Shown piece after piece: positions 8,201 to 62,043 of a stretch of 64,000 bases of DNA. The notes beneath the pieces were generated by a model that saw only the letters and a list, made by a program, of their open reading frames with translations, was not told the origin of the DNA and did not search any database. Source of the DNA: Paramyrothecium sp. XJ0827 (Eukaryota > Ascomycota > Sordariomycetes > Hypocreales > Stachybotryaceae). The stretch lies in the NCBI GenBank assembly GCA_020881915.1, contig JAJFPB010000003.1, positions 744,001 to 808,000 of the forward strand. The letters are read 5' to 3'. Made by a program: the position numbers and the translations under genes. Each line of letters opens with the position of its first letter. The stretch's first letter is position 1.

Positions 8201-8687
8201 GTACTCTGTCCAATCAACCCGAGCAGAAATTCTCGACTGCTCTGTCGACCTAGTATCAGAAGAAGCAACCTTCGGTCAGGTCAAAGGGGGTCTATTGACT
8301 ATTCGCGGTCCCGTTAGAAGCTTGAGCTTGAGAGAGGCATGGCAACATTTCGGCTGCGGGCCGAGGGCCGATCAATCCAAAACTATCGGAATGATTGACC
8401 CAGATTTCCGATGGAAGGTTCCCAAAGACGGATCAATTCGGAGCGAGTTTGGCATTCCGGAGGATAGAGGACCGCTCTTCTTCCTCGGGCTGTCGATGCG
8501 GCCGGGGGATAAGTATGAGACCTGCGGCCTCACGCTCCTCGAGACGGCGGACAACCAGTACGAGCGGTTTGGGCTGTTCAAGGTTGGGGCGGCTGATGAC
8601 TTGATAGCCATCCCTTCTTGGCACCAGCAGGTCGCCACGGAGCGCTGGGGCAATGATTATAAGGTTAGGACTATTTCTATACGATAG
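5283..8687 (+). CDS. HET-domain protein with N-terminal SUFU/DUF3480-like region
   Basis: Clear exons are up to 6384, 6437-6946 and 7003-8687 (introns 6385-6436 and 6947-7002, both with good branch points and matching phase). From the first in-frame Met (5598) the protein is 993 aa. The frame stays open back to 5283 with a Pro/Ala/Gln-rich stretch and no Met, so an upstream exon is likely and the true start is unresolved. Residues about 1-295 (counted from 5598) resemble SUFU / SARA C-terminal (DUF3480) domains: TYVSRGLADVGQ, FLGRSDIRAILYYPP, and a closing strand near the second exon start. Residues about 510-660 are a typical HET domain (ATLSYCWGG, YLWIDSLCI, the FSAA block, then the DRRAWTYQE block). 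HET proteins act in vegetative incompatibility or cell death. The SUFU/DUF3480 assignment is my inference. Confidence 0.85.
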
Positions 8688-25043: not shown

Positions 25044-26283
25044 GGCTTAACGTATTGTTGTGTTTGAGTCTAGTGTTGTTTGAGTGATGTACGTCAAGAG
25101 GTGAAGATGTCAAGTGCCTGTATGATTTCTAGACTCAGTAGTCTTTGTTTCTTTGCATGTCTGAAGACAAGTGAAAAGAAAGTTTTCATGACTGGATTTT
25201 GCTTTCAACTTATGCTATTCAGATCTAAGAGTTGAGGCTTCCACGATAGTGATGGCAATGTGGCGGGTGATGCGGACCGACACAACAGACCAGATGCTTC
25301 ACCATCGCCTTATCGCGGCTGCGCCTTGGCGGAATGCCGCTCCCGAAGCGGTGTTTCAAGATAGCTGAAGCCATCTGTAGCCTTGCCTCTAGCCGGAATG
25401 GCCTATGCGGAATGCACAGGATGGCCCGTTCTCCTCCATTCAGTCCTAGACCCTCCGAGACCGTACGCATCGGCTTCTGGAAGCCGTGCAGGCAGATAAC
25501 TGCAGCTAGCCGACAAGTGAAACACGAGGTAAGCGTGCGTCGTTGCTCCGGAGAAGAGCGAGCGGACCGAACCCCCGTGTCCGGGCTGCAGGGGCTGACA
25601 TCATGAGTCAGATCCCGATCTGTGGCCCGCACGTACGTCAATCAGGACGGCGGTGGAAAATCCGCAGCCGCGCTGATAAGGCTCTCAGCTCATTTTCAAA
25701 GGCATTCTAACCTGACCTTGATTGTCAACAGGTGTCAGGTTCATGGCGCCTCGTATGGGGAGTATTCTTTGGTGGTTTTGATGGATGTGTACAAGCTTGC
25801 ATAAAACTTTAGAAAACCTCTCTTACAGCAAGCATGAGTATATGCCAGATCTAATGCTACCTCTTCACACGCGAAGGGAAAAAAAAAAAGAATTGTTCGT
25901 TATCTGCGAAATCCATGTACATTACGTGATTTCTACATAGAAGTTGTACCCTTGAAATGTTCATCTCAAGCTGTTGCGCGGAAGACCATTCAGCGAGTAA
26001 TTTTCAAGCTTTATCGGAGCTCTTACGAAACTAAAATATTCCCTTGTCAAGACGCAAACTAGCTCAAATTAATTCTTTAAGGCGCCGTTTTTATTTGTGA
26101 TTAACTATGCCTTCCGTCTCTCTCAGGTCCAATTCAAGAAATTGTCAAGACAAGTTGCCCAGTCTCTCTGCGCCCTCATTTTTTTTTTTTTTTTTTTGGA
26201 GATTGACCAACATATCCCAGTTGATGTAGACGATAATCACTCTGGATGCATTAGCCACGAATAACTCCAGCCATGGTTCATTC
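25044..26283. other. PKS upstream region, no gene seen
   Basis: About 1.2 kb between the PKS start and the end of the membrane-protein gene. A 138-codon minus frame (25225-25641) has biased composition and no recognisable features. Homopolymer runs: A at about 25869-25880, T at about 26179-26199. Promoter elements of the PKS should lie in 25044-25600 but none is decisive by eye. Confidence 0.5.
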
Positions 26284-27915: not shown

Positions 27916-29908
27916 ATGGCCGTCGAAAAGGTAGATGTTGTCGTGGTAGGCACTGGTAAGCGTTTCATCTTTCTCGGAGATCACCCTGCAATCACATGCT
28001 GTTTCTACTGTCCTATAATAGCACACTAACACACCATTAGGCTGGAATGGACTTATTGCTGCCAAGACCTATCTGGACTTCGAGCCCAAGGCAAAGTTGG
28101 TGATGATCGATAAGCAGGCCTCAATCGGAGGCGTATGGGGCACCGAGAGACTTTATCCTAGTCTGTACGCTCAGAGCAGACTCGGACTCTTCGAGTACTC
28201 CTTCTACCCTATGAAAAATGAGGGCATCACTTCAGATGGCTATATCTCGGGCCAAACTGTCCACAACTATCTGACTGATTTCGCGCGAGATCACGGTCTG
28301 CTCCCGAGAATTCGATTCCAAACTAGTGTTGTCAAAGTCGATCGCCTTTCTCCATCTGGATGGAGACTCGAGATCGAGGGTAAAGAGCCAATTGAGTGCG
28401 AGAAGCTCATCTATGCATCAGGTCCTACCTCCGACCCTGTGATGCCGGCATGGCCCAGGTCGAATTTCGATGTTCCGGTAATTCACTCTGCTGAAATGGG
28501 TGTGCACCTCGACGATATCGACAAGATCGAGCGCGCAACCGTTATTGGAGCCGCCAAGTCTGCTTACGATACGGTGTTCCTTTTGCTTAATGCCGGCAAG
28601 AAAGTTGATTGGGTGATCCGAGAGGTTGGCTCCGGCCCTCTAGCCATTATGCCTCCAACTATTTTTGGTGTTGTCAACAGCATGGATGTCATCACGACTC
28701 GGTTCTCTGCTCTCTTTGGCGCCAGCATCATGAATACAAGTGGCATCGGCCACCAGTTCTTCCAGAAGACACGGCTTGGCCGAGCAGTAACGAATGTATG
28801 GTGGAAGGCTGTCGATATCATCTCCGCTGTTCATGCCGGCTACTCCAAATCACCCAATGCTGAAAAGCTCCGACCCATTCCTGTTGGTAACGGCATCTTC
28901 TGGGCAAATTCAGGTCTTGGGGCTGCCAGTGTTCCAAATTTCTGGAAAGTCTTCCATGCCGGCGACTGCACAGTGCACCGAACGGAAGTCGACTCCTTAA
29001 CAGACAACACCATTATCCTCAGGAACGGAACCAAAGTCGAGACAGACTACGTCATTGCTTGCACAGGCTTTGTCAAGTCCTGTCAACCATTCAGTGATGA
29101 CCTCAAGCCGCTTTGCGGTCTGGCCGCTGATCCATTAGACAGCAAGAAGTGGGCTAAGCTAGACGCGGAGGCCGAAGCATTTGTCGATGATGAGCTACCC
29201 TCATTGCGCAGCCCTCCTTCACATCTGGTCCAAGAAATTGATCGCTCACAAGTCCCGGATAAACAAAGACTATCCTACGGGCCGTGCCGACACTACCGCC
29301 GCATGATCTCTCCAACGCTTGCGGCTCAGGGAGATCGAACCATCTTCTTTCCTGGCTTCATTCACACCATCTACACACCTATTGTAGCGGAGGTGCAGGC
29401 TCTTTGGGGGGTTGCCTACATGCTTGGCCTACACGATGTGCCATCGCAAGATGAGATGGAGAAGGAGGCAGCCGTGTGGAATGCTTGGACGCAGAAGCGG
29501 TACCGTGCTCTGGGCAAGAAGCACTCATACGCCATTTTCGACTTCCAGTCTGTAAGTATTTCCACCTATTTGGCTGACGATGTTTCACATGTGCTAAGAT
29601 TTTGATTGCAGTACATCGACCAGCTGCTGAACGACCTTGGAGTTCGGAGCCAGCGCAAGAGCAATGCTCTTGCTGAGTTGTTCATGCCGATGCTCCCGAA
29701 GGACTATCGTGGCTTGATCGATGAATTTCGACAAGCGCAAACTAAGAAGCACTTTTTGGGTAGCGGACCAAAGTCGAATGGTGTTCTCAAGTCCAACGGC
29801 GTCTTGAAGACAACCTCAGTTCCTAAGCTCAATGGTATTATGAAAGGAAATGGAGTTCCCAAAGTCAATGGAATGCACATTGCGACGGTTGAGGTCAATG
29901 GACACTAG
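27916..29908 (+). CDS. FAD-dependent monooxygenase (FMO/Baeyer-Villiger type)
   Basis: Exons 27916-27955, 28041-29551 and 29612-29908 encode 615 aa (introns 85 and 60 nt, in phase). FAD-binding GTGWNG at residues 12-17 is split by intron 1. ASIGGVWG follows, then the second dinucleotide loop VIGAAKSAYD and the late CTGF motif (DYVIACTGF) typical of the flavin monooxygenase family. Enzymes of this class use NADPH and O2 for hydroxylation, epoxidation or Baeyer-Villiger insertion. Its position between cluster genes suggests oxidation of the PKS product. The last 50 residues are an odd low-complexity tail of SNGVLK/NGVPK-like units with no counterpart in the catalytic fold. The predicted start is the only ATG that restores the first Gly-rich loop. 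Confidence 0.9.
29764..29890 (+). repeat. Degenerate short repeat in monooxygenase C-terminus
   Basis: Units reading SNGVLK, SNGVLK, LNGIMK, GNGVPK, VNG recur every 6-8 residues. The DNA copies differ at several bases, so this is an older and diverged repeat. Confidence 0.7.
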
Positions 29909-30602: not shown

Positions 30603-32643
30603 TTAATTCCAAAGCCTCTTGCGCTGTACAAAAGTCAGTTGAATTCTTCGTCGTAAATAGTGGTAATGACTCACGCTCAAGAACAAGGACGCAATGAGCC
30701 CGAGTGCTGCACCAGCAATCTGAATGGCAAACGCATTATGAATGGCAAGCGTGATTTGCTCGACCACAGCTTCTTTGACCTCACCAGTCAGGCTCTGAAA
30801 GAGAGGGCTACTAGCTCCAACTGTAATGCTCTGTACTTGTTCTTCGGACAGGTCCGGCAGGACGCTCGCAATCTTTTGTGCACCAATGTTGGTAAAGAGG
30901 GATCCTGCCATACCCAAAAGGGTGATGCCGCCGAGTGCTTGGCCTTCAAAGGGTACTTTTCAGCGAAGAAATCTTGTGATGCAGATATGTGCACTTACCA
31001 ACGGACATAAAACCGATGGCGTTGTTCAGGTCCTCAACTGACACCAACGCCTGAGTCACGGAAAAGCCAGCAGCCAAGAATGAGCCAACACCAATGCCGA
31101 TCATTGCCGTGTATCCGTAAATTCGTGATGCCGAAGTATGGTAATCGATGGTAACTTGTGGGATCGTGAGATTTGATTACATCGATAAAACCAAGTGAGA
31201 ACTTACACATGAGTGCGGAGCCAATTAATACCATGGCGTTGCCAAAGACATACCAAGGCATGTGGTAACCCAGCTTTGGCATCATACCACCGTTGACGAT
31301 GGAAAAGAATGCAATCATGCATACAAGAGGGAGGATTCGAACGCCAGCCTCCATAGGACTGTCGCCCCTGGTGAACTGGAAGAGGAGAGGGGTGTAGTAG
31401 ACTGTAATCATCATGCATCCGGAAGCGAGGAACAGCTGATATTGCAAGTTGTTCAACTCCATTCGTTTTGCGAAGTGCGCTGGGTACAGCTTGTTCTCGG
31501 AGGAAACGAATGGATGATAGATCGTAACCAAGACAAAAGCAACGAGTAGGACTCCTGTCATCGTCCACAGAGTGATTTCGGCTCCGCTATCGAACTTGTA
31601 CACGACACCTCCAAACGTGAGTGCCATCGTGAAGCAGGCGCTGCCAGCGGAGAAAATGGTGATTCCCACCCAATCCTGGGTAAGGAACTTCTGACTCATT
31701 GAAACGTCCATAGGGTTGACACTTGGAAGACACCAGAAGAAGGCCGGCGCGAAGACGGCAGCAATGACAAGGTTGATGTAGAACGCCCATCGCCACGTTG
31801 CGCTGCTGTCGGCAAAGGCTCCGCCAATGACTGGACCGAGGACACTGCCAACACCGTAAACGACGGCAATGCCTGCGAGATAGATGGGTCGCTCTTTCAT
31901 GCTCGTCAGGACTGAGATGTACGTGAGACCGCCACAATAAGTTCCGGCTCCTGAATAAATTGTTAGTAACACACAAAGTGTGAGCTGTGAATCCGGAGAC
32001 GAAAGACTAACCTCCCACGCCAGCGATGACTCGGCCAATGATGAGTGCGTTCATGTTAGGGGCAGCGCCGCAAATAACGCTGCCAACCTCGAAAATGATG
32101 ACACATGCCAGGAACATCCATTTCACGTCATAAACTCCGTAAGCTTTCCCACTGGTTCTTGTGTTAGCCGATGGCGATGATTCGTGGTGCATAGGTGTCT
32201 TACAGAGGCAGGATCGCAACAGAACCCAGCGCAAATCCGACGCCGATCCATGCCAGATTCTCGATATCACCGAAGGCCTCAATGATTGAGGGTTGTAAAT
32301 CTGCGACCTAAGAGATCTTAGTAGAATATTATTGAGGTGAATTCAGGTCGAACGAACAATCGTGTTGTCGAGCGCGAACAACAGGACGGAGGCGATGAGG
32401 GAACTGTAAGCAAAAAACCACTGAAAGGCATTAGTACACCGCGACCAAGCATGGATGGAAAGAGCCTACCTTGATTCCTGTCACCGTCCGAACAACGTCT
32501 TCTGGTTTTGGGTCCGGTGGAGGCGACTGGGAGCTGCTTGTCTCGCCATGGGAGTCGTCTGGAAGGTGGGGCACGGCGACCTTCTCGCTATCGTGGGGTT
32601 CGCTGGAGCGAAGCACGCCCACTCTGTTGTAAATTTCAGACAT
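30603..32643 (-). CDS. MFS drug/toxin exporter, DHA2 (14-TM) type
   Basis: Eight exons: 32470-32643, 32358-32420, 32204-32307, 32012-32151, 31207-31950, 30999-31154, 30675-30943 and 30603-30623. All phases agree and give 556 aa. A cytosolic N-terminus rich in Ser/Pro precedes about 14 hydrophobic segments. DNTIVAD at the end of TM1 and the antiporter motif-C region [14 protein letters not shown] in TM5 are hallmarks of the H+-driven DHA2 family. Such pumps commonly export the product of the neighbouring cluster, giving self-protection. It converges on the monooxygenase gene and is divergent from the CLC gene. Two exons are very small (63 and 21 nt), which automatic gene finders may miss. Confidence 0.9.
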
Positions 32644-44976: not shown

Positions 44977-46066
44977 GCTGTCATGGCTTTGTCGATAGAG
45001 GATGGCAGGACTCGAAAACCGAGACGGGCACTAGAGCTTTTCCGTCATCCGATGGTTCGCCCAAGTTGGTCCACCTGCTGCTAACATTGGCCGGGGTTGA
45101 TAGGGGGAGAGCGAGAGTTCAGATGCGTGGGCGCGAAAGTGGGTACATCATCATAATTGTGGGACAGTTCTTGGTTTTAGTCCCCAAAAGAGACACCGTC
45201 TCCAGTTTGTAGGCAGTTACAGCATCTACCACTGATGATTACATGATCGAGATGATGTGTCAACCCATGTGTATCAACGTTGGACGAATTTTGAGGTGAT
45301 GTTGAATATGACTACGATTTACATGATTTCAAAAGTTGAAAGCGGTTGCTGTGACGACAGTTTCTCTAGCGGGTCATCAAAGATAACCTCAGGTCAACTT
45401 GGTTGTACTGCTCCAATGCCTCTTGAATATTGCAAGGCTTTCTAATTGACTCATTTCTAGTTGCCACCTCTTTGTTTTCAACATCCATCAAGCAACTCCC
45501 GAAAGAAGAGATCTCATTGCCAAAATGGCCCTACATTAGGACATCAAACTGGAGCTTTGAACTTCGCCTGTGGAGTTCTGTTTTCCCACTTCATTTGAGC
45601 CACCAGGTAACAATGGCAGTATATGTAGTTCCGATCTCGGAGCAAGACAGTAGAGTGTGAGATCTCTAACAAGTAACACCCGAATCATGATGTTTACAAG
45701 AAAAGAGGAGATTGTCTCAGTCAAATGTCTCCTGACTTGTCTACCTAGTATCACTGCCCAGTAGGAACTGTAACCGTCTTCGAAATATGAGTGTATTTGA
45801 ACAAATAGTGTTAAAAACTGCACCTTGGTCTGGCATATTTCGCGAGGAAACCTCGAGAAAGCATCCATCCTGGGCGAAAGATTCCTCGCGTCTTTGGCAT
45901 TACAGTCTTCTCAGGAGGTGGTGCCAACTGACTCTCAATTACCCCTTCCTCTATTTCCTCCATCATTGTAGCAAGCTCTGCTATCGTATCAGTATCTATA
46001 CCCTGAGCATTGATTAAACAAGCACCCGATGCAATGGAGGAAGGGGAGAGCCAGGCTATGAGCGTC
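44977..46066. other. Convergent spacer, no gene seen
   Basis: About 1.1 kb with only short open frames on both strands. Confidence 0.5.
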
Positions 46067-47942
46067 TTATTGGAAAATAATCACTCGGTTGCCAGTCCTC
46101 TCCAAAGGACACGAAACACATCGTTGATGTTGTCCGAGCATTCCTGATTGTGTTAACGCGATGCAATTACAAGGAGCAAACATTTGCATGTGTCCCTGTC
46201 CACAAATACACTGCAAAAAAACTGTGTCAACGGTCAAGGATGGCGGAACCAATAGTATGCTGTACTTACACAGTACCATTCAAACTTCGCGAGTTGACGC
46301 ACTCTTCCTTGCGGCTCGAACGTCCAATATACATCGTTGCTTTTCCCTACGCGACGGAGCGGGAAGTAGACATTGTTGACTTCGATGGCCTCAGTGAAAG
46401 GTCTTTTTGTTCTGTTGTACTGACGCACGAACTCGATCTTGATCTGCCATAAAGGGACAATGGCGTCGCACGCGATTTGAAGAGTAACGCGCGTTTGATC
46501 AGACGCCAGAATAGTGAGATTACAAGTTTTTGCCCCAGACCTTGTGTTAAGATGACTCGGGTAAAAGGACACACAATGAAGCGTGCTATTTTGTTTGAGG
46601 CCGTTCTTCGAAAGCGTACCTCTGGTATCTTGGAGAACTTTGTTGCCGTAAGTGAACTTGAAATAAGCACAGCTTAAGCCAAATCTTCGAAGGATCGCAT
46701 CCTGCAGTTCCATGGTCGTATCGTCAAGTCGTACCCCAATCACGGCTGTCTTGAGATTAGGTATTGGCAGACCCTTGACAAAGATCTGCACATAACCTTC
46801 GCCCAAAAACGGGCCAGTATTCTGCGTGCGACATGTCCAGAAGGCGGTATCCACAGTCTCTTTTCCCAAGTAGGAGCTCACCTGGATGCTGGGATCGTTC
46901 TTCAGAACAGCTTCTGTGAATAAGGATGCCGCCTCATCCATGTACCGTTTTGTAGACCAGTCGAGCTCGGCGGGGATCGCACTTCGGTCTAGGTCGTAAT
47001 GTGGCAGTGCTTTGGGAAGGCGCTCTGCTCTTTCGTCTTCAATGGACTCGAGGAGGGCTGCCAACTTTGTCCTGCACGTATCGAGGACCTCTTGCGTGAC
47101 TCTACTTTGATATCTTGTAACGTTGCGTTAGTTGAAAGGTTACCTTATGTTCAAGTAGAGAATCTCAAGCGCCATCAGAAATGATAGGAAATCTCACAAA
47201 TTAGCCATTGCGATAGCAATACTGAGACTGTTTTTATGCGATGTGAGTGCCTTGCGATACCGTTGGATGTCTTGGTTTGTTATGCCATCTGAATCCACTG
47301 CCTTGGAATCATTTTTCTGGCATTTCAAATCATTGGCTCTCTCCTCAATCTCAATAATGCTCGCACGACAAGTCTCCAGTAGGCTCCGGGTATTCTCTGA
47401 CGTCGTGGCCCACAAGGTGCCGCTACTTGTCTCACTGTCCATCAAGGACGCCTTGAGAGTTCCCAGTGTCTTGTAAATCTCTCGAGGCTCGTAGGCAATG
47501 TCTAGGAGTTGCTCGCCGACATTCTTTTCCGTCACGAGGGTACGATGCAATCGTTCGCAGGCGCTCTCGGCGCCAGAGATGGCCTCCCGCAGGTGTCGCA
47601 TTTCCTGCGCCGCATCTTCGGGGAGTTCTAGCAGCCTCACATTAGAATGATGCGACGGACATGTCGAGATTGGCAAGCGGCATACCAAAGTTGAACACAT
47701 TGCCAATATGAGCGCGGGCTTGGCCGGAAATGGTGATGCTCTCGAAACGTTCCACGGGTGCAGAAGAAGCACACTCGGCGCCCAGGCAGACTGCGAAGCA
47801 CCAAGCCACGCTTCTGCTGATGTTTCAGGCATTTCCGACCATGACAGGTCGCCAACAGCCCGTGACTAGCCGTCTGGCACGTGAAGTAATGGTCAAAGGC
47901 ACAGCGCAGGACGACCACCGTTGCCGCAGGGTCGTATTTCAT
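46067..47942 (-). CDS. HRAM-like motif / helical / ubiquitin-like / Cys-rich protein
   Basis: Exons 47840-47942, 47686-47790, 47198-47627, 46270-47113 and 46067-46210 encode 541 aa; phases agree at all four introns. Residues about 48-71 (exon 2) read FESITISGQARAHIGNVFNF, matching the spacing of HET-s-type amyloid (HRAM) repeats. A long helical region follows (about 72-280, ELPEDAAQEM onward). Residues about 325-390 look ubiquitin-like (VRLDDTTMELQDAI; KVLQDTRGTLSKNGL; STLHCV). The C-terminus has paired Cys/His (WYCCICGQGH, APCNC, HQRCVSC) as in a zinc ribbon or RING-like fold. It is divergent from the HELL-HRAM gene, 362 nt apart. The N-terminal 34 residues are the least certain part. Function inferred: adaptor or regulator in an amyloid-signalled death or defence pathway. 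Confidence 0.6.
47686..47757 (-). other. Candidate HRAM-like amyloid motif in the minus-strand partner
   Basis: Encodes VERFESITISGQARAHIGNV and a few further residues. Pattern: aromatic, x2, Ile/Val, then a short polar turn, AR/AK, x2, Gly-Asn. It matches the repeats in the neighbouring gene in spacing of hydrophobic and Gly positions. Identity of the motif is inferred. Confidence 0.5.
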
Positions 47943-48304
47943 CGCTCTGGGCGGAGGCCTGAAACGACTGTTGCAAACCGACTGTTGCGAAAATTTCTCA
48001 GACGCAATGATTGGTGAATACAGTACGGCTAGATGGGCGGGATTGCTGCCTGGACGGCAACCAATGAAGTGTGAACCGGTAGGATATCTTATCCTCATAA
48101 CTTTTGCCGTCAACTCAGCCGCACACCTTCAATTCCAGCCTCATCATCATTACCCATGTTTGGTTACGAAGGCATCTCAAGCTCTAGATTTCTTTGTATA
48201 ACATCATATTTGTTTACTTCTTTTATACTTCCTGCAATATCTTTGCCCGTCTCGCCATTGATCAACCATCAAACTCTCTGCGGCTTCTGATCCCTTCATC
48301 CTCC
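47943..48304. promoter_or_regulatory. Divergent promoter of the HRAM gene pair
   Basis: 362 bp between the two start codons, short enough for shared control. No specific motif identified. Confidence 0.45.
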
Positions 48305-49228
48305 ATGGAGCCGCTATCTCTCACTGCCAACGTGATTGCTGTGGCGACTGCGGCCTTGAGTAGCGGCAAAGCCCTCTATGACCTTATCGAGACGTATCGT
48401 CATGCTAGCCGGATCTTTCAAGATATTCACGCAGATATCAACGCCTTGAACAATGTCTTGGCTTCCCTACAAAATATTGGCCTCGCAGACCGTGGGACAT
48501 CCTTCTCACAGATGCAGTGCTTGTGTCTGCAAGAGATGGAGCCTGCACTGCAAAGCTGCTCAATGAGCTACGAAGCATTCAAGGACAAACTAAGCAAGTT
48601 GATGTCGAACTCGTCGCCTGGACACACCAGCAAGCGGGATAAACTTTTTCTACATTTCCAGACGAATGACATCTCGTCACTTCAGATTCAGCTGAGCAGC
48701 TATAAATCGACCCTTACGATTGGGCTCCTCGTTATCTCTATGTGAGCAAGAAATGCTAAACTTCATGTTATTCTTTTCTAAGAGCTCGTGGTTGATTGTC
48801 ATTCCTTCCTTTTGCACAACAGCAAGTCGTCGTCCGAGAGCAATAGAGAGCTGGGATTGAAAATCGAGTCGACCATGGGCGAGATCACCAGCCAAATGAA
48901 GGGGGTCAAGCTCGCTTTGCAGGCTGTTGAGGACGCTGGCGCAGCCAGTAACGGGAGCCTGATGACAAGCTTAGCGCAGATCATGGGGGTTATGTCGCAC
49001 TGCGGCAACGTCTGCAGGGCGGCGTCAGCTATAGTTCCCACTCGTGACACTACGACTTATGAGTCTGTGCAAGCCTTTGACAACGCAAAGTTCATGCTAG
49101 GTAGCACTAATACTCAGGCTATTGCAGATGGATCTTCAAAAACTTTTGGGGAGGTTGTGGGGAAGAACGAAGCGAAGGTCTGGATAGGAGACTTGGACGC
49201 GAAGACGGCGCTTGAGTTCATGAAGTAA
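48305..49228 (+). CDS. HELL/STAND-accessory domain with C-terminal HET-s-like (HRAM) repeats
   Basis: Exons 48305-48741 and 48823-49228 encode 280 aa, close to the size of HET-S. Residues 1-60 (MEPLSLTANVIAVATAALSS onward) match the fungal helical N-terminal domain found in STAND and HeLo-like (HELL) proteins. The helical part continues to about 215. The C-terminal 57 residues contain two pseudo-repeats, T-Y-x2-V-x5-AK-x3-G (residues 224-242) and T-F-x2-V-x5-AK-x3-G (253-271), offset by 29 residues. The second reads TFGEVVGKNEAKVWIGD. This is the layout of a HeLo-type effector with an amyloid prion-forming domain: amyloid templating exposes the helical domain, which then damages membranes. 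That mode of action is known for HET-S and related proteins; here it is inferred. It lies beside another HRAM-like gene and about 6.6 kb from a NACHT receptor. Confidence 0.75.
49055..49199 (+). repeat. Two HRAM-type pseudo-repeats in the HELL-HRAM gene
   Basis: Encode TYESVQAFDNAKFMLGSTN and TFGEVVGKNEAKVWIGDLD, separated by about ten residues. Hydrophobic, Ala-Lys and Gly positions align without gaps. DNA identity is low, so the repeat is old and maintained at the protein level. Confidence 0.65.
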
Positions 49229-49579: not shown

Positions 49580-50190
49580 TTAGCTGCGGCCAGGAGCGCA
49601 GACGGTGGTGACCAGAGTGACGGGCTTGGGGCAGCCGAAAACCTTGGTCTGGGCGGGGGTGCTGTAGCAGGCAGCGTTGTTGGCGACGCAGCTGAAGGAC
49701 TCGCAGCCCTCGCCGGCGGAGAGGGTGTTCTTGAAGCCGGAGAAGGGGTTGCCGAACTGACTGTTGAATGTATTAGTATGAATGTCGAATCCATTTGCTA
49801 GTGCCACCACTGTGTGCACAAAAGCATAGGTGATCCATGGACAACTTACGTGCTCAGCTCATAGTAGGCGTAGTTGGGGTCGGCCGTGACGGAGTATCCG
49901 AAGAACAGAGGGGTAGTCAGGGTCTTGGTCCTGGCAATCTTGACAGTCTGTTTAAGATCGGTTAGTTTCCGTGTGTTTATTGTGAAGACGGAGAAACATA
50001 CGGAACCGGTGGTTCGGAGAGCCTCAGTGAACCTCTGGCCAGTCTGGAGGGTGGTGAGAGGGCCGGGAGCGCCGCCGCCGTATGGGACGGACTGGACGTA
50101 GACGGGGAAGGCGCAGTTGTTGTGGACAACGGCGTTCTGGGCAGAGGCCAGGCCGAGGAAGCCGGCAACAGCAGCGACGGAGAACTTCAT
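49580..50190 (-). CDS. BYS1-type secreted protein
   Basis: Exons 50002-50190, 49850-49947 and 49580-49760 (introns 54 and 89 nt) encode 155 aa. The signal peptide is MKFSVAAVAGFLGLASA. The mature protein starts NAVVHNNCAFPVYVQSVPYG, the thaumatin-like opening of the BYS1 family (yeast-phase-specific antigen in Blastomyces; many secreted fungal homologues). It contains FGYSVTADPNYAYYELS and a Cys-containing C-terminus (CESFSCVANNAACYSTP). Extracellular or wall-associated; biochemical role unknown. A good TATA box and a GGT/TGG repeat lie upstream. Confidence 0.85.
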
Positions 50191-52958: not shown

Positions 52959-54119
52959 GACGAGAAGTCTGACTGGATGAGATGAACAAGAACAATACGG
53001 TGATAATAGTAGGACAGTGATAATGGAGATGGAGAAAACAAAGTGTTAGGATGCGGCGTGATTGTAGCAACTACGACAGCACGTCCGTCTTCCATCCTTT
53101 ATAGGTCTACTACACCGTAGCTACCCTGGCATCGACATTGATCCTCTGTTGGTCAAGGTTTCCGATCTAAGCATTACTGCATGTTCCCGTCCTACATTGG
53201 AAATGGCTACCTCGGGGCTGTTGATAAGCTGATACGATTAGAGGACCTACCATGAAGCTCCAGGTCAAGGACCCCACGTAGTAACAAACAGAATTGCAGA
53301 GCGATACAGGTCTAATATGGCTGCTACTGGTCCGGTATGGGCCTTCCCTACTTGCGTTTCTCTGCGATGGTATCTTCGGATTTGGACAGGAGGGGATTGG
53401 GTCTTCCAGAGGCACAACGCATTTCATCATAGTGTTCCTACGAGTCTTGAAGATAATGGGCAACTTCATGGGATCTCGCAACCCCGAGCCTTACGTCTTG
53501 TCGTTGGCTGACGGCCAAGAGAATTTATGCCATCTCCTGAATCTGAAGTTAATAGACTTTAGCAGGCCACGCGGTTGCATGAGACAAGGCCGAGAGAAGC
53601 ATAGCCGGACGCGACAACTGAGGTGCTTGGCACGATCAAACCTAACAAGCAAGTGGCCCCCAAGTTTCATTGCACCTGGTCGCTAGCGCGGAACTCGTAG
53701 GTCCCCAAGACTAGACAGATAGCGGCGGGCTGCGAACAATAATCGTGGCCTTGGGGGGGTGTGATGTGTGTCTCCTGACCACGGTCACAGGACCTTGTAG
53801 TCCTTCCTGTTCAAGTGTCGTGCTCTTAAAATAGGCTCCCGTTGGTTCATGAATTTGTTGCCTAATAGTTGGTCTGTAAGCCCCGCACAACTTGACCAAC
53901 AGGTAGATGTATCCCCGCATGAATCCTATCTCATGAAACAAGTACCAACCAACTAACACACAACACGACCATCCACAAGCCACCCATTTTTTCGGTCAGC
54001 GCTGCGTGCGTGATTTCCATAACCAACATTCCCTTTGGACCGTACCCAGAGTGTTCAACATCATCTCTACATTTTGCTTTCTCAAACTGCTTGTGCGACT
54101 CGTCGTTCCACCTGTTGCA
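52959..54119. other. Intergenic, no gene seen
   Basis: Divergent spacer between the Cys-rich gene and the ankyrin gene. A 130-codon plus frame (53,294-53,686) has no recognisable features. Confidence 0.45.
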
Positions 54120-55502
54120 ATGCCATACCTACCAACAGGCCGTTCCGAAACCAGAGAGATTTCTCGTCTCCCTTCCAATCAGCAGGGCCTGAAATACGGA
54201 GAAGGTCAAAATGGGGGTGGGGCTGCAATTCATCGCGCAATCTTCGAAGAGTGGGATGCCAGATATCGTGACCTCCCGCCGCTGCCTCCTCACCTACCAA
54301 GTCCGCTCTACGCAGTCCAGAACAATGACAGGTATCGACCTAGATGCCGAGAGAACTCTGAAATGTTAACTTTCTATGATGCTTGTGCAGAGGGCACCTT
54401 GGACCAAGTTCGCGAGTACGTGCAAACTTCTCAGCCCTCAGCCGCCAACCTTGCCTATGCTCTTGAGGAGGCTTGCCACAACTTCCAATTAGACGTTGTA
54501 AGGTTCTTGTTGCAGCAGCCAGACACAGCACTTCACTATAGGTGCTTTCGTAGGTCCCCTAATTGGCCGTTCCGCGAACCGATCTCGTTTCCGAAACCAC
54601 AGAGTATATTCACAAGCGGCAACTCGCGGCTCCTTGACTTACTCAAGCTCCTGCTTGATTTTGGATGGCACCCAAACCAACTTATCGGGCCAATGGAAGG
54701 AAATGGGCTGGTATCTTCGCGTAAAATCCGTCAAGAGGTAGCGCTGCACTACCCACGATGCATTCTCGACCAAGATATTCTTCGCTTCCTCCTTGACGCT
54801 GGAGCGGACCCAACCATCGCAAGATATTTCGACAGAGATCCAAGGTTATCTTTCGCCGAACAGCGGGTCAACATGAAGAGCGGTGATATTCTCGAGAGGG
54901 CGGTCAACCTAGGCGCCACGGAGGCCGTGACTCTGTTGGTATCGCGGGGGGCAAGACTTGCCTACGGCATGCCTCTGCATAGCTTGATACGACGTCGACC
55001 TAATAGTGCCTTGCTTAAAGCTATGGACAATGCGTATCTTGAAGAGATCTGCAGGGAAGACCCAGATTTCCGATATCCCACCTTATCAATTCGTCTTCAT
55101 ATGGCAAGACAATTGCTTAGCCACGGTGAGGATATCAATAGAGTAGCCAATGTGTATGCATTTACCCCCGCATGTTTATGTATAACAGAGCTAAGAATGA
55201 TTTATGGTCATAGTTACAGGATCGCCTACGGATACAACCGAATTCCTACGGCTTCTTTCAAAGCGACAGCATTGTCCCATGCTAAGCATTCAATGGACTG
55301 GGATTTTGTGCAATGGCTTTTGGAAAATGGTGCCGATCCAACTGCCAATTATCAAACAATTCAAGACCCGTATCTTTTCTACTGGATTGGAACGGACGAG
55401 GAGGAGATTGAGGAGATGTACCAAGATATCATAACCAAGGTGGAGAGAAAAAAGGGAAAGGTTCCCGTACATGTACATGGAGGGACCACGAGCGAATCAT
55501 GA
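54120..55502 (+). CDS. Ankyrin-repeat protein, 460 aa
   Basis: Single exon. The first in-frame ATG is at 54,120; the frame is open further upstream without a Met. Ankyrin units are recognisable but divergent: LTFYDACAEGTLDQVREYVQ, ALEEACHNFQLDVVRFLLQQ, LLDLLKLLLDFGWHPNQLI, ILRFLLDAGADPTIA, LERAVNLGATEAVTLLVSRGA, ARQLLSHGEDINRVA and FVQWLLENGADPTAN. There is no signal peptide, membrane segment or enzymatic domain. It is probably cytosolic and acts through protein binding. It precedes a NACHT-ankyrin gene by 355 bp on the same strand, suggesting a local expansion of ankyrin genes. Confidence 0.82.
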   Translation: MPYLPTGRSETREISRLPSNQQGLKYGEGQNGGGAAIHRAIFEEWDARYRDLPPLPPHLPSPLYAVQNNDRYRPRCRENSEMLTFYDACAEGTLDQVREYVQTSQPSAANLAYALEEACHNFQLDVVRFLLQQPDTALHYRCFRRSPNWPFREPISFPKPQSIFTSGNSRLLDLLKLLLDFGWHPNQLIGPMEGNGLVSSRKIRQEVALHYPRCILDQDILRFLLDAGADPTIARYFDRDPRLSFAEQRVNMKSGDILERAVNLGATEAVTLLVSRGARLAYGMPLHSLIRRRPNSALLKAMDNAYLEEICREDPDFRYPTLSIRLHMARQLLSHGEDINRVANVYAFTPACLCITELRMIYGHSYRIAYGYNRIPTASFKATALSHAKHSMDWDFVQWLLENGADPTANYQTIQDPYLFYWIGTDEEEIEEMYQDIITKVERKKGKVPVHVHGGTTSES

Positions 55503-55857
55503 TAGGATCATGCAACATTATAGACCGCGGCCGCCCGATTACTCCAGATTGTCAGCATTTTTAAGGGATTCATATGGTGAGGGATACTGGGGTAGAAAGT
55601 ATGGAAGAGCGAAAGGATTACACATATTTTTTATTTATCAATAAGGATTCCTCCCAATCTCCGTCCATTCTTGTACCTGTAGTCAAAAGGGGCAGATGAA
55701 ATGACGTTCGACACGTGATGTTATGCAGCATTGTGGCAAAGATTGCTGCCTAATTTGAACTGACAGACAATATAAAGATGTGATCTCAGATCAACTCCTC
55801 ATTTTTTCATCTTTGAGCAGCAAGATATTTTCTCTTCGTTTCACGTCTCAACTGATC
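55503..55857. other. Spacer with candidate promoter
   Basis: 355 bp between two same-strand ankyrin genes. It holds TATAAAG 81-87 nt before the NACHT gene start. Confidence 0.5.
55771..55777 (+). promoter_or_regulatory. TATA-like element of the NACHT-ankyrin gene
   Basis: TATAAAG about 85 nt upstream of ATG 55,858. Confidence 0.4.
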
Positions 55858-58800
55858 ATGCCAAAATCTTCGCACACGGCAGACGAGTATGAGTTTGTGG
55901 AACATGAGGAGACATCCCTGAATCCTGAAGCAATCGCCAAGATCCGGGAATGGCTGCAACCAACAGACTACCTTGCTGAATCGGGAGAGTTCCGTCGCCA
56001 CCTTCTGTCGCAGGCCCCTGGTACAGGACTTTGGCTCTGCAAGACGGAAGAGTATCGAAGATGGCACGACTCTCCCGATCATGGCAGTCTTTGGATCAAA
56101 GGCGTGCCCGGAGCGGGCAAGTCGGTCATGGCAGCCTCCATCATTCAGCACCTCAAAACCACTGAAGACTGCCCTGTCCTGTTCTTTTTCTTTCGAAGCA
56201 TCGTTGCGGCCAATTTCTCACCGCGTGCGCTCTTCCAGGACTGGTTGGCCCAGCTTCTGCCGCACTCGCCAAAGCTGCAATTCGCACTCAACGCCCGGCT
56301 GTCCAGCAGCCTCGCCGAAACTTCAGACAGCGATCTCGTTCAGTTGTTTGTTGAGGGCGTCTCGTGCGTTCCCACGCTTTACTGCGTGGGGGATGCTCTT
56401 GACGAGATGACGACTGACAACAGAGCCTTCCTCGATCATTTGAATAAGCTGGCTACTTTCCGACCCCACTCGCTGAAGCTGCTCATCACCAGTCGGCCAA
56501 AGCAACATCTGCAAAGCGCATTGCGTGACTCATCCATCGTGCATATCAGTCTGCAGCAGCAACTCGTAGATACGGACATCATCGCATTTCTTAATCACCG
56601 GTTTGATGCTGCCCCCAAAACCGAGGTCCAACGACAGGTCAAACAAGACATTATTGACATGGTTGCGAGAAGATCCGGAGGGCTATTCCTCTATGCCAAG
56701 CTCACTATTGACCAAATTGAGGCCGCCTTATTATCGGAATACCCTATAGACATTGCCAGTCTTGAGAAGTCCCTTCCTTCAGGGCTACAAGAGACGTACG
56801 GCAATGTACTCGCGAAGCAGCGTGAGAAGGGAATCGACATGGAGTTACAGGTGTTTATATTGGAGGCCATCATTCACGCATCTCGACCGTTGCGGTTGAA
56901 TGAGATGGCGAGCCTCCTCAAGTGTATCCATCCAGCTGCAGCTGGATCACAATCCTTCAAGGGCCTAGTCGCCGCGGCTTGCGGGCCGTTGGTCGAGATT
57001 TTGGAAGATGAAACACTTCAGGTGATCCACCATTCATTTACCGAATTCTTGCGCGGTGATACAAAGATCCAGAATGGTTCCAATGCTTCGTCGATCGACT
57101 TTCCAGTCATCAATTCGGATCAAGCACACAAGCGGATGGCCATTAACTGTCTCACGTACCTCAAATCGGGTACACTCCTTCTCGATAATGAGATCCTGGA
57201 TGGCGAGGGCGTAGATGCATCCGTCGCATATGTTATGCCTCAGCATCAGTTCAACCGTGACGAGTTGCTTCATCGGCATTCCAATCTCGGAAACGCGGTG
57301 CAAGGTCCTTTCAGATACTTGGATGCCCGCTTACGACACCCATTCCTGGGCTATGCCGTGGAGAACTGGTGGTACCATGCGAGTCGCTACGATGCTGAAG
57401 ATGACGAGTTTTTCAAAACTATCACAGACTTCTTTGATCCAGACAGTCTTTCCTGTCGCAGATGGCTCGTGCTACAATGGCGTTCAACGTCGAAAGGTAG
57501 AGAGACCTTGGAAGGACTTCCGACGGCTCTTCACATTGCTGCGTTTGCTGGCCTATCCCAATTTTGCCTCAGCCTAATCAAACAAGGTCTGGATGTCTCT
57601 GCGAGGGATGCTCAAGAGCGCGTCCCGCTGCACTGGGCGGCAGCCAATGGACACGCCAAGGTTGTAAGCTTGCTCCTTGATCATGGAGGCAAGCCAGATC
57701 CCATAGACGGATTCGGGCTACAGCCTATTCATCTTGCCGCGAAGAAAAATCATGCGACAGTTGTGAAAGTTTTGCTCGCCGCAGGCGTCGAGCCAGACAC
57801 CATCAAGATAAGAGAAAACCACTCCAGGCGCCTCAGAGATGGCGAGACACTCACGACAGGCGAATGCGCAATTCTCTACGCTAGCAAAGCAGGTCATACG
57901 GAGACGATTTTGGAAATGATTCCTTACTGCAAACCGGAGGTGCTGGAAAGACTACTATGTGAATGCTGTCGATTTGGTCGAGCTGATGCTGTCTCAGCTA
58001 TCCTTGAAAGGACAAATGTGTCTGCTGACGCAACATGTTGTGGAGCGACTGCTTTATACTTGGCTTGCCGCGCCGCCAACGCCAGGTGTGTAGACTTGTT
58101 AGTTGACCGCGGCGCTGATGTTGGAAGAACATCAGAGTATGCGCCTCGGCGCACTTGGCTAGGAGAAAGTCCGTATACAGAACATAAAACGCCACCGTTG
58201 CATCGACTGGTCCAGTCTTGGAGCAATGGAGACCCTTCGGCTTGCAGGTCCATACTCTGGAAATTGGTCGAGGCAGGCGTTGACCTCGAACAAACTGATG
58301 GCCTAGACCAAAATGCATTGGTGATAGCTGCTTGCGAAGTAGGCTACGGCGCCACAGGGTCGCCTCATTTGAGTGCTATGAAGGAGTTGTTGAAAGCAGG
58401 GGCAGACATCTGCAGAACTTACAGCTCGGGAAACACAATTCTGCATCTTGCGTTACAAGCGGGTTGCGATCTCGAAACTCTGCTTTTACTCCTTGATAAT
58501 GGCTCCAATCCCAATCAACAAAATGATCATGGAATGACGCCACTACACTGCATTGTGGGATCGTCTGATGGGAACAGGGACGCTGGAGTCATCTCCCAAA
58601 TGACACGATGTTTGCTGGATCGTGGAACCGACCCCAATGTTAAGACCAGCCATCTGCCACCAATACTACAAGGAGCAATGGACTCAGGACCTGAGATTTT
58701 CCAAATGCTTCTCCCGCTTTGCACAGATGAATACGTCCGGAGACGTTGCTGGTTTTCCTTGGAGGGAATTTATGAAGAGGAAAAGTTTGACGTTTACTTG

Positions 58801-61800
58801 GATATACTTCTTGGCGAAGGAATGGACATCAATGCATCGGAAGCGAGAAACGGTGATACACTCTATATCCGCTGCCTGGGTTCTGAACATAAGACCGAAG
58901 CCTTGCGGAGCCGCGGAGCAAAGACTGACGTTGTTGACAATAATGGCAACAACGCCTTACATATTCTCAGTAAGAACGGCTCAGGCAATCGTGAAAGATT
59001 GCAAAAATACATATCCGAGGGCTTAGACCCGCTGGTAGTGAATGACGATGGTTACACGTTGCTCCATCAAGTTGCTCATTGGTACAGTGGCACGCCGGAA
59101 GATGCAGAGTATGTACGTTGGCTTGTGGGTTGCGGTATCAACGTCAACGCTCAGGACCACGAGGGCAACACAGCCCTCCATATTTCCATTAAAAGAGCTA
59201 TCTCATTTGACATAATGGACCCGACCGGGAGAGTTCCGTTTGCCCTGGCCCTCAACCATGAACAAGGCGTCAGCTTCAACATCATCAACAACAATGGCTT
59301 GGCTGCGCTGCATCTTGCAGCTATGGATGACTGTATCAAAATGGCCGATCTTTTATCTGCGGGAGCAGACATTTCAGTTTTGACTCGAGATTCCGAAAAC
59401 GTACTACACATCGCTTGTCGCGCTCGCCAGACGAATGTTGTCGGGCAGATACTCAGCCACAGTACCAGAATCAATGTGGAACACCGTAACAAAAGTGGCA
59501 GGACACCTTTGCACATTGCGTGTCGCTCAGGTGACCTGGAATCGGTTGCGTTGCTTCTCGAAAGCAAGGCAAATCCCCATGCTGTTGACTCCAATAGATG
59601 TACTCCTCTTCATGCATGCGCTGAGTTTCCCATTGAACAAAAGCTATGGGAAGCGAACAAAAATATCCATCAACAGAGGTCCAATCAACCGGGAGATCCC
59701 TTCAGGCCAATTCATGGAAGATGGATGTCTCGGGCTCCCTGGTACGCCAGAGGATATAGGAAGCCTGAGCCAGATATTCGCAGGACTTTCTTCCACGGAG
59801 TAGGCGAGATAGTGCGACGACTTCTGGAAAGTGGTGCAGAGGCTGGCGCTCGAGACTCTGATCGACTTACCGCGTTGGACGTTGCCATCCAAGGCCATTG
59901 CCCAGAGTTCACTGAAGTTTTCGCCGCAGACCCCGCGTTATTTGCGAGCGCAACAAGGCACTTGCACGGAGAAGAAGAAGACGACGATACGGTCAAAAAG
60001 CGACTTCACAAACAGCGAGAACAAATGAGAGCGCACATGATGCTCATGCGGCCAAGGCCTTACTTGCATAACTTAGAACAAACTGACCAGTCGACTTTCG
60101 ACCTTGTACTCGAGTCTCCTGCGTTCTATCTGGAGCTACTGACAGTAGAAGAAGCGGTAAACGTCATAAACCGAAGTTTTCAAGCCGAACCAACTAGCCG
60201 CGCTCATTACAAGCTTTTGCAAGAGCTGGCAAAAGCGAAACATCTCCACCTCACGGAACGAACGGCTCCTCTCTTCTTGCATTACAGCTCCTATGAATCT
60301 GTCCAAACCGAGCTGGAGTGGCCTGTGAAGAATCGCTACCATGTGGACGAGGCGTTGACATCGCTACAACTCGCTTGTAAGCAGCGAAAGATGAATCTAC
60401 AGATGCTACGTGTCCTTGTGGAGAAAGTGAAGATTGATGTCAATGGACAAGGGGCAATCTTCAGTGACGTCGACCTCTCTGGACCCCACCCAGGAGGTGC
60501 TGCACTCCATGTTCTCGCCTCAGCAGATCACTGGTGGCAACTCGAAGGCTTGAGATATATCCTTGCTCACGGCGCAGCGGTGAACATCCAGGATAACAAG
60601 GGTCAAACTCCGCTACACATCGCCTCCAAGGGTAAGGAGTGGTGCAACAGAGAAATTGTTGGATCTTGGAGGTTCGAAGCCGTGCGCATCCTTCTTGACA
60701 ATGGTGCAGACCCGAATATCCTCGACAAGCAAGGCTTTTCAGCTCTGCACGCAGCATCCAATGCACCGCAAATCATGAATGAATTGCTGAGACGAGGTGC
60801 AGATGTCACACTAGGAAGCAGGCATCCCTTGTTCCAAGCGATCTATATGGAAAACATTGAAACTGTCGAAATGATTCTCGATCATGGCGTCGACGTCAAC
60901 GTTGTCGACGAAGATGCCCATAGTGGTGATAACCCCTTCACGTTAACCGAATCACGGAAGGCTTACGCCCTCTTAAATGCAGCCTACGCGACGAAGAAAA
61001 ATACTTCCGTTAATAGGTCGGCGCCGTTACTGAGAACTCTTATAAATCGGGGAGCTGATCTTTACGTCGCTCTGAACAGCCAGGAGACATTAGTACACTT
61101 CCTCTTTGAGTTTCCACAGTATGAGGTGATGGATACTTTACTCGAGAAGCCTTGTGTCTCTCGAATCGATTTCAATTATCGAGACCAACGGGGACGCTCT
61201 GTTTTGATGGCCGCATGTGACTGGCAATATTCAAGCTACTCACACTGCTACTGGACGGCGGGAACGCCATCACTGCCATTGCGAATTCTGAACCTTGGAG
61301 CAGATGCATCTTTGCTCGACGATGAAGGACAATCAGCACTACATCATATTCTTGATAATCCTGGCTTCACGACCGAGGACGTACTGGAATTCGTCAACCG
61401 TCAAGAGATAGCCCCATTATGGTTTCTCAAGGACAAGAAAGGATTCTCACCCTTTCACTGCGCTCTGCGTACGCTTAGACCTGAAATCTGTGAACTACTC
61501 CTCTCCAAAGGCGCCGACTTTTTGGAATCTGACCCGAACGGGCAAACAGCTTTGCACCATATTGCCCGACAATGTCTACAAGTCAAACGCCAAGCAAAAG
61601 GTGGCTTATATTCAAGTATTGATTTACACGAAGACTGGCCTGATCACTGCCTGGGGCTCTGGCAACATTATCTCTCGGCTGGGGGCTCTATTAACGCGGC
61701 TGACAACGCCGGCAATTCGCCTCTACTTGCTTTTCTCAGCGCTGATATTCTGGAGCAGAGGAGTGCATCTTTTTGCCATGTTGAGTTCTATGATAAGCTC

Positions 61801-62043
61801 TTTCCTGCGGACAGTGGTGTAGATGTCCTCGCAACCAACAACATTGGAGACACAGCTCTACATATCATTGCAAAGCGCTCCTCTATTGTTGTCGTTGATG
61901 GGCACGATAAAGCGATGTTCAAGCTCATGATGGATAAAGGCGTGGATCCACTGAAGGAGGACGCCGAGGGAAGGACGGCACTGGACGTAGCCAGTGCTTT
62001 GGACAAGAATGATATTGTTGGATTGTTTGCAAGGAAAGGGTGA
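55858..62043 (+). CDS. NACHT-ankyrin STAND receptor (NLR-like), 2061 aa
   Basis: One uninterrupted exon of 6.2 kb. ATG 55,858 is the first in frame. N-terminal leader of about 30 residues (DEYEFVEHEE), then a NACHT module: Walker A GVPGAGKS (82-89), Walker B-like TLYCVGDALDE (about 173-183), and LLITSRP sensor strand (about 210). The winged-helix-like part continues to about 420 (IHHSFTEFLRGD). From about 555 to the end are some 30 ankyrin units, many typical (PLHWAAANGHAKVVSLLLDH; TPLHIACRSGDLESVALLLE). A charged, non-ankyrin spacer lies near 1,370-1,420. Fungal NACHT-ankyrin proteins resemble NLR immune receptors and several control incompatibility. There is no N-terminal effector domain or amyloid motif, so it would need a partner. 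Confidence 0.93.
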   Translation: MPKSSHTADEYEFVEHEETSLNPEAIAKIREWLQPTDYLAESGEFRRHLLSQAPGTGLWLCKTEEYRRWHDSPDHGSLWIKGVPGAGKSVMAASIIQHLKTTEDCPVLFFFFRSIVAANFSPRALFQDWLAQLLPHSPKLQFALNARLSSSLAETSDSDLVQLFVEGVSCVPTLYCVGDALDEMTTDNRAFLDHLNKLATFRPHSLKLLITSRPKQHLQSALRDSSIVHISLQQQLVDTDIIAFLNHRFDAAPKTEVQRQVKQDIIDMVARRSGGLFLYAKLTIDQIEAALLSEYPIDIASLEKSLPSGLQETYGNVLAKQREKGIDMELQVFILEAIIHASRPLRLNEMASLLKCIHPAAAGSQSFKGLVAAACGPLVEILEDETLQVIHHSFTEFLRGDTKIQNGSNASSIDFPVINSDQAHKRMAINCLTYLKSGTLLLDNEILDGEGVDASVAYVMPQHQFNRDELLHRHSNLGNAVQGPFRYLDARLRHPFLGYAVENWWYHASRYDAEDDEFFKTITDFFDPDSLSCRRWLVLQWRSTSKGRETLEGLPTALHIAAFAGLSQFCLSLIKQGLDVSARDAQERVPLHWAAANGHAKVVSLLLDHGGKPDPIDGFGLQPIHLAAKKNHATVVKVLLAAGVEPDTIKIRENHSRRLRDGETLTTGECAILYASKAGHTETILEMIPYCKPEVLERLLCECCRFGRADAVSAILERTNVSADATCCGATALYLACRAANARCVDLLVDRGADVGRTSEYAPRRTWLGESPYTEHKTPPLHRLVQSWSNGDPSACRSILWKLVEAGVDLEQTDGLDQNALVIAACEVGYGATGSPHLSAMKELLKAGADICRTYSSGNTILHLALQAGCDLETLLLLLDNGSNPNQQNDHGMTPLHCIVGSSDGNRDAGVISQMTRCLLDRGTDPNVKTSHLPPILQGAMDSGPEIFQMLLPLCTDEYVRRRCWFSLEGIYEEEKFDVYLDILLGEGMDINASEARNGDTLYIRCLGSEHKTEALRSRGAKTDVVDNNGNNALHILSKNGSGNRERLQKYISEGLDPLVVNDDGYTLLHQVAHWYSGTPEDAEYVRWLVGCGINVNAQDHEGNTALHISIKRAISFDIMDPTGRVPFALALNHEQGVSFNIINNNGLAALHLAAMDDCIKMADLLSAGADISVLTRDSENVLHIACRARQTNVVGQILSHSTRINVEHRNKSGRTPLHIACRSGDLESVALLLESKANPHAVDSNRCTPLHACAEFPIEQKLWEANKNIHQQRSNQPGDPFRPIHGRWMSRAPWYARGYRKPEPDIRRTFFHGVGEIVRRLLESGAEAGARDSDRLTALDVAIQGHCPEFTEVFAADPALFASATRHLHGEEEDDDTVKKRLHKQREQMRAHMMLMRPRPYLHNLEQTDQSTFDLVLESPAFYLELLTVEEAVNVINRSFQAEPTSRAHYKLLQELAKAKHLHLTERTAPLFLHYSSYESVQTELEWPVKNRYHVDEALTSLQLACKQRKMNLQMLRVLVEKVKIDVNGQGAIFSDVDLSGPHPGGAALHVLASADHWWQLEGLRYILAHGAAVNIQDNKGQTPLHIASKGKEWCNREIVGSWRFEAVRILLDNGADPNILDKQGFSALHAASNAPQIMNELLRRGADVTLGSRHPLFQAIYMENIETVEMILDHGVDVNVVDEDAHSGDNPFTLTESRKAYALLNAAYATKKNTSVNRSAPLLRTLINRGADLYVALNSQETLVHFLFEFPQYEVMDTLLEKPCVSRIDFNYRDQRGRSVLMAACDWQYSSYSHCYWTAGTPSLPLRILNLGADASLLDDEGQSALHHILDNPGFTTEDVLEFVNRQEIAPLWFLKDKKGFSPFHCALRTLRPEICELLLSKGADFLESDPNGQTALHHIARQCLQVKRQAKGGLYSSIDLHEDWPDHCLGLWQHYLSAGGSINAADNAGNSPLLAFLSADILEQRSASFCHVEFYDKLFPADSGVDVLATNNIGDTALHIIAKRSSIVVVDGHDKAMFKLMMDKGVDPLKEDAEGRTALDVASALDKNDIVGLFARKG

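Follow-up and report, generated by a model that had tools for sequence, protein, structure and literature searches.

In a 64-kb stretch of genomic DNA (hereafter the window; positions 744001-808000 of contig C9 in a genome of 51.8 Mb and 15 contigs) we find an effector gene that very probably encodes a divergent HELLF-type protein, and head-to-head with it a gene for a ubiquitin-like protein that does not resemble an NLR. We give roughly even odds (about 0.5) to the reading that the two form an amyloid-templating pair with a non-NLR trigger, in which the effector is switched by its ubiquitin-like neighbour. This reading builds on features that appear in the sequence itself, namely a HELL domain and a conserved repeat pair in the effector, an r0-like motif and a predicted ubiquitin-like domain in the neighbour, the adjacency of the two genes in a second species, and a neighbour with no detectable nucleotide-binding domain.

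The effector is a protein of 280 aa encoded on the plus strand by two exons, 48305-48741 (from the start codon to the 5' splice site; 61% identity to P0001) and 48823-49228 (including the stop codon; 54% identity to P0001), which are separated by a GT-AG intron at 48742-48822. A preliminary description of this locus had its coordinates, intron and reading frame right: the Fusarium austroamericanum ortholog FAUST_2095 (P0001, 282 aa), which shares 58% identity with the effector from end to end, has an annotation that runs through this junction as a single protein. The same description placed the N-terminus in the HELL rather than the HeLo class, and we agree, as the HeLo-like HELL family PF17111 (PigL_N) matches residues 1-190 (48305-48955, plus strand, the span including the intron) with 98.4 bits against a cut-off of 27.2, while the Pfam profile search at E 10 showed none to the HeLo family. 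PF17111 is also above cut-off in the homologs P0001, P0007 and P0008, and is without a match in P0011, whose N-terminus is garbled. When the single effector sequence was searched against Pfam, NCBIfam and PDB sequences only PigL_N was found, plus weak or chance matches. Database searches with the effector returned one protein (E 0.001) and then seven (E 1); both repeats are carried by three of the seven (P0001, P0008 and P0011), P0007 has the first repeat and an annotated end that falls inside the second, P0009 and P0010 are too short to reach the tail, and P0012, a weak match, lacks it. The matches with a species name come from F. austroamericanum, F. austroafricanum and Colletotrichum tropicale (4/7 bear no such name), the best of them being from Fusarium and the one from C. 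tropicale being shorter, which would probably put the genome in or close to the ascomycete family Nectriaceae. Next downstream of the effector, at 49580-50190 on the minus strand, lies a gene for a small protein with an N-terminus resembling a signal peptide.

At its C-terminus the effector carries two HRAM-like repeats on the plus strand, r1 (residues 221-241, 49046-49108) and r2 (residues 250-270, 49133-49195), each supported by a four-tail alignment, PDB ranking, a signature pattern and a self-match; they are joined by a loop of 8 residues and followed by a tail of 10 residues with one aromatic residue (49196-49225), which is conserved in the alignment of four homologs. The preliminary description had recognised this pair, which is confirmed; the strings it quoted cover residues 224-239 and 253-268, and the repeat limits given here follow the 21-residue register of the literature. 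HRAM proteins are described as having two pseudo-repeats of ~21 aa within their last 80 residues and a loop of 6-18 aa (Daskalov 2015, PMC4518210), with Gly at position 19, generally hydrophobic residues at positions 5, 8, 10, 16 and 18, and a preference for K/R at position 15 (PMC4518210). The effector shows this layout, with two repeats of ~21 aa in its last 80 residues and a loop of 8, and in both repeats positions 5, 8, 16 and 18 are hydrophobic, position 15 is basic and Gly 19 is kept; at position 10, where HRAMs in general prefer a hydrophobic residue, r1 has Ala and r2 has Gly. Four tails (those of the window protein, P0001, P0008 and P0011) share r1 and r2, the 8-residue loop and the tail, and Gly 19 is kept in 7/8 repeats of these four proteins, r2 of P0001 having Ala. 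When the four-tail alignment was matched against itself, the best of all offsets laid r1 exactly on r2, and this was equalled by 1/1000 column shuffles. A search with the HRAM signature pattern in all six frames of the window gave three matches, which are r1, r2 and the motif of the neighbouring gene (residue shuffles gave a mean of 0.7 matches and a maximum of 4 in 200 shuffles); this pattern had been widened after r2 was inspected, to admit Gly at position 10, and its narrower form matches r1 and the neighbour's motif only.

Profile searches gave a more divided picture. PF11558 (HET-s_218-289) had no match on the effector at E 10, and with the C-terminal 79 residues alone Pfam was without any match at that threshold. 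Run genome-wide, again at E 10, PF11558 found only a canonical HET-S-like pair on another contig (the C7 pair) and neither gene of the window. The preliminary claim of a C-terminal HRAM-like pair thus stands on homologs, self-repetition and PDB rank, and not on the Pfam HET-s profile; among the 155 HRAM proteins catalogued in 2015 only 38 are reported to match PF11558 (PMC4518210). Single-sequence searches were insufficient here, and it took the four-tail profile, run against 177,635 distinct PDB sequences, to reach HET-s in the PDB: out of 14 sequences at E <= 10, the HET-s prion-domain chains 2kj3 (E 0.054) and 2mus (E 0.09) rank first and second, and their alignments to the profile cover both repeats in register. 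Each of these E-values is weak by itself, and it is rank and register that argue for the likeness. Nucleoside diphosphate kinases come next in the list, from E 0.12, which together with the best PDB match being only E 0.054 and with the lack of a Pfam HRAM match would be in keeping with a PigL_N protein whose C-terminal repeats form a small tail, folded or helical, with no amyloid signal and a convergent likeness to HET-s. An AF2 model of P0001 (mean pLDDT 58) likewise has a helix over r1, followed by two strands in r2, at a pLDDT of about 30-53; with this model Foldseek found no match at E 0.001 or better, and being of low confidence and too poor to use it speaks neither for nor against the predicted two-rung solenoid fold. 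We nevertheless hold such a folded tail to be improbable, since the top-ranking PDB match aligns with both repeats in register, since their symmetry is so rarely equalled by shuffling, and since the window protein keeps the loop length, Gly 19, the basic position 15 and the hydrophobic positions 5, 8, 16 and 18. In these comparisons P0007 was used for r1 only, in the position check and the pairwise scores, and was left out of the tail alignment, the self-match and the 21-mer scoring described below, while P0009, P0010 and P0012 (which have no tail) and the partner homolog P0006 (which has no N-terminus) say nothing on the motifs.

The neighbouring gene, which the preliminary description does not mention and to which we refer as the partner, is a conserved gene that lies head-to-head with the effector on the minus strand, from 45811 to about 47790. 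Its spliced model aligns with P0002 over 537 positions at 44% identity. It consists of an N-terminal exon with a single motif (47686-47790; matched in tblastn by residues 23-45 of P0002 with 57% identity and E 2.8e-5), an exon for a helical region (47198-47627), an exon for the helical end and the ubiquitin-like domain (46270-47113) and a last exon (45811-46065) that is placed by splice fit, alignment and a weak tblastn match of P0002 460-507 (E 0.082); a candidate first exon lies at 48127-48157, also on the minus strand. A Cys-rich tail considered for the partner was dropped, as the homologs indicate another last exon and the stretch falls in an intron. A match to ArsA_ATPase (E 0.063, below cut-off) came from a wrong-frame open frame over a partner exon and is absent in the spliced models. 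An AF2 model of P0002 (eight rows) had a mean pLDDT of 40 and was too weak to use, and a search of the genome with P0002 found the window gene only.

The ubiquitin-like domain lies at 46570-46752 (minus strand), where PF00240 matches with E 1.8e-4. This is below cut-off in the window model, as it is in P0002, P0003 and P0006, and P0004 has no PF00240 match; the ortholog P0005 reaches 26.0 bits, above the cut-off of 25.4, and a profile of the partner family finds the ubiquitin-like chain 2jvc in the PDB with E 6.5e-7. We therefore regard the predicted ubiquitin-like domain of the partner as supported. No nucleotide-binding family was found at E 10 in either of two window partner models or in P0002-P0006. 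The helical region contains a weak PigL_N-like stretch (47068-47565, minus strand, the span including an intron; 22.5-22.6 bits against a cut-off of 27.2), a match that recurs in 3/4 members with a best E of 8.3e-6 and begins at profile position 19. Membership of this region in the HELL family was rejected, with PF17111 below cut-off and with no helical match to the effector family by hhalign. Because the weak PigL_N match begins only at profile position 19, the partner may descend from a HELL-like protein in which the membrane helix disappeared and the motif was acquired.

That motif, which we call r0, is a single HRAM-like element near the partner's N-terminus (47696-47758, minus strand). 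In the homologs P0002-P0004 (551-556 aa; F. equiseti, F. flagelliforme) one 21-residue motif follows after the first ~18 residues, so that r0 is N-terminal in 3/5 partner homologs, P0005 and P0006 beginning further downstream; the motif of P0003 is short of four residues, the aromatic one among them. With a 21-mer score built from the eight effector repeats of four proteins, r0 excluded, the partner r0 ranks third of the 63,096 stop-free 21-mers of the window, its 13.6 being behind r1 and r2 themselves and ahead of 12.3 for the next 21-mer; it had already been spotted by eye before this scoring. At 36 other loci of the genome 2/108,952 distinct 21-mers reach 13.6 (14.1 and 14.0), whereas none of them comes up to the 19.4 of the F. 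equiseti r0. Other methods saw less: the r0 exon gets -1.4 bits from an HMM built on r1/r2, hhalign of the effector tail with r0 gives a probability of 0.6%, the r0 profile finds nothing in the PDB at E 10, and with a mixed HMM of repeats and C7 motifs the r0 open frame comes fifth (E 5.6).

Two other pairs of the same genome served as comparison. The C7 pair (1797500-1807400; start codons at 1804731 on the plus and 1804483 on the minus strand) consists of a HeLo effector (157.5 bits) with a PF11558 match of 69.5 bits, head-to-head with an NPHP3_N-WD40 NLR, in whose open frames we find an N-terminal motif, NPHP3_N and WD40 repeats above cut-off, and NACHT below it. The C12 pair (829000-834500) consists of an NPHP3_N/NACHT gene and, head-to-head with it, the gene of a HELL effector (90.3 bits). 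A GxQxxGN segment that by eye looks PP/RHIM-like is present in both, in each at the end where it would be expected; the C12 effector also has an HRAM-like 21-mer upstream of this segment, with a score of 14.0. The window pair shares the anatomy of both pairs, save that its partner yielded no match to a nucleotide-binding domain. The orientation of HET-S/NWD2 is reported to vary between species (PMC3321046), so that a head-to-head arrangement is by itself little proof. As a yardstick, PF11558 gives 13.5 bits (E 0.075) on the canonical r0 of the C7 NLR and 12.5 bits (E 0.15) on the partner r0 exon, both below the cut-off of 32.2; PF17108, the HET-S N-terminal motif of NLRs, gives 16.7 bits (E 0.0071) on the C7 r0, itself below the cut-off of 24.3, and had no match in the partner at E 10.

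Pairwise scores bring in a second effector to which r0 might belong. Against r1 and r2 of its own pair the canonical C7 r0 reaches 26 and 28, and published r0 motifs usually group with their own r1/r2 (PMC4518210); the partner r0, at 24, is nearer to the C7 r2 than to the window r1 and r2, with which it scores 18 each. This would fit an account, to us the less probable one but a serious competitor, in which the effector is of the HELLF type and its cognate trigger is an NLR encoded elsewhere, or it has no dedicated receptor, and the neighbour's r0 addresses the C7 HET-S-like effector or nothing. Adjacent NLRs are in fact recorded for only 98 of the 155 catalogued HRAM effectors, HeLo-like ones included (PMC4518210), and NLR adjacency is described as common but not systematic (PMC4518210). 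Moreover, the effector matches with a species name include none from F. equiseti or F. flagelliforme, although both have the partner; as the first effector search missed homologs that the second found, this lack of a match is not proof of absence. Against a trigger encoded elsewhere, the adjacency of effector and partner is kept in F. austroamericanum, whose orthologs bear the consecutive locus tags FAUST_2095 and FAUST_2096, on contigs that do not differ in length (the FAUST_2096 model begins downstream of the motif and is without the r0 exon), and a whole-genome search with the effector tail gave no second copy, the window alone being returned at E 10, from one first-look candidate. The NLR nearest at hand does not help this account either. 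The nearest NACHT match to the effector, among 74 listed in the genome, lies 6.5 kb downstream in a large NLR gene (55759-62043, plus strand) with NPHP3_N/NACHT and many ankyrin repeats in one 2094-aa open frame, and we rejected it as the cognate receptor as no HRAM-like motif was found near its N-terminus.

The window holds several further genes. An ankyrin gene (53937-55502) lies just upstream of the NACHT-ankyrin NLR, and a HET (heterokaryon incompatibility) domain gene is found at 6900-8687 on the plus strand (95.9 bits). A highly reducing polyketide synthase (17736-25046, minus strand; KS, AT, DH, zinc-dehydrogenase, KR and ACP pieces) is accompanied by an FMO-like gene (28022-29605) and an MFS pump (31034-32050), the three of which perhaps form a secondary-metabolite cluster.

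In the templating mechanism that we favour, the plus-strand gene would encode a HELLF-type cell-death executor whose HELL helical bundle is held silent until its last 60 residues (r1-loop-r2) convert to a two-rung amyloid solenoid, a conversion that would release the bundle for an attack on the membrane of its own cell. The upstream trigger would be encoded by the minus-strand gene: its single N-terminal r0 would nucleate the fold as soon as a signal is sensed by the helical and ubiquitin-like parts or these parts cluster, and in this way a protein that lacks a nucleotide-binding domain would stand in for an NLR. Amyloid folding, templating between the window proteins, membrane attack and a sensing role for the neighbour are steps that we infer. 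The neighbour might conversely be a brake, its r0 capping or co-assembling with the effector amyloid and its ubiquitin-like domain recruiting a proteasome or segregase for clearance. Such a role, which we would likewise infer, suits a protein that has a ubiquitin-like domain and no visible nucleotide-binding switch, but we think it unlikely, as known trigger receptors are built in just this way, with one N-terminal motif and a gene next to that of the effector, and as the N-terminus of FNT1, the NLR partner of Podospora HELLF (PMC7889193, PMC7885112), is reported to induce the HELLF prion rather than to cap it (PMC7885112).

Returning to the neighbour as a trigger, we tentatively suggest, and with somewhat less confidence than for the pair itself, that fungi possess amyloid signalosomes without an NLR, in which a head-to-head HELL executor would be set off through templating by a ubiquitin-like protein that bears a HET-s-type motif at its N-terminus. 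In the literature surveyed, HRAM templating in fungi so far begins at an NLR or at the effector's own prion form. If true, a trigger motif carried by a non-NLR protein would make the amyloid relay a portable module and link it to ubiquitin-type biology. The genome moreover offers a compact test system for cross-seeding, with the window r0, the window r1/r2 and a canonical HET-S-like pair.

Set beside known systems, the window pair combines familiar parts with one that is not. HELLF/FNT1 of Podospora anserina (HRAM5) has the same HELL domain with two C-terminal repeats (277 aa vs 280 aa here) and likewise an adjacent gene with an N-terminal r0 (r0-like here); HELLF, with its HRAM5 repeats and prion-forming tail, is reported to kill on contact with that prion (PMC7889193, PMC7885112), and its prion-forming region spans residues 209-277, against about 218-280 in the effector here. 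However, FNT1 is an NB-ARC/TPR NLR, whereas the partner here is a helical, ubiquitin-like protein: where a HELLF-type effector has an adjacent NLR with r0, the gene adjacent to ours has an r0-like motif and no nucleotide-binding family at E 10. HET-S/NWD2 (HRAM1) and the C7 pair are likewise two-gene modules with a double C-terminal motif in the effector and a single N-terminal motif in the partner, and the C7 pair is head-to-head as is the window pair, but their effectors have a HeLo domain rather than HELL, together with a PF11558 match, and their partner is an NPHP3_N/WD40 NLR. HELLP/PNT1 (PP motif) and the C12 pair, the latter again head-to-head, share with the window pair a HELL effector with a C-terminal motif and a like motif at the N-terminus of the partner, and differ in their motif (PP in HELLP/PNT1, PP/RHIM-like in appearance in C12) and in having an NLR as partner. 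The literature covered, with subscription papers and supplements outside its scope, mentions neither an N-terminal HRAM on a protein other than an NLR nor a partner of the ubiquitin-like type; the ubiquitin-clan Crinkler domain named among NLR N-termini (PMC9815663) is a different matter from the partner here. The preliminary description had taken the combination of HELL and HRAM to be new, but it is already present in the 2015 catalogue (PMC4518210) and in Podospora HELLF (PMC7889193, PMC7885112), and the new point is not this layout of the effector but the non-NLR make-up of the neighbouring gene.
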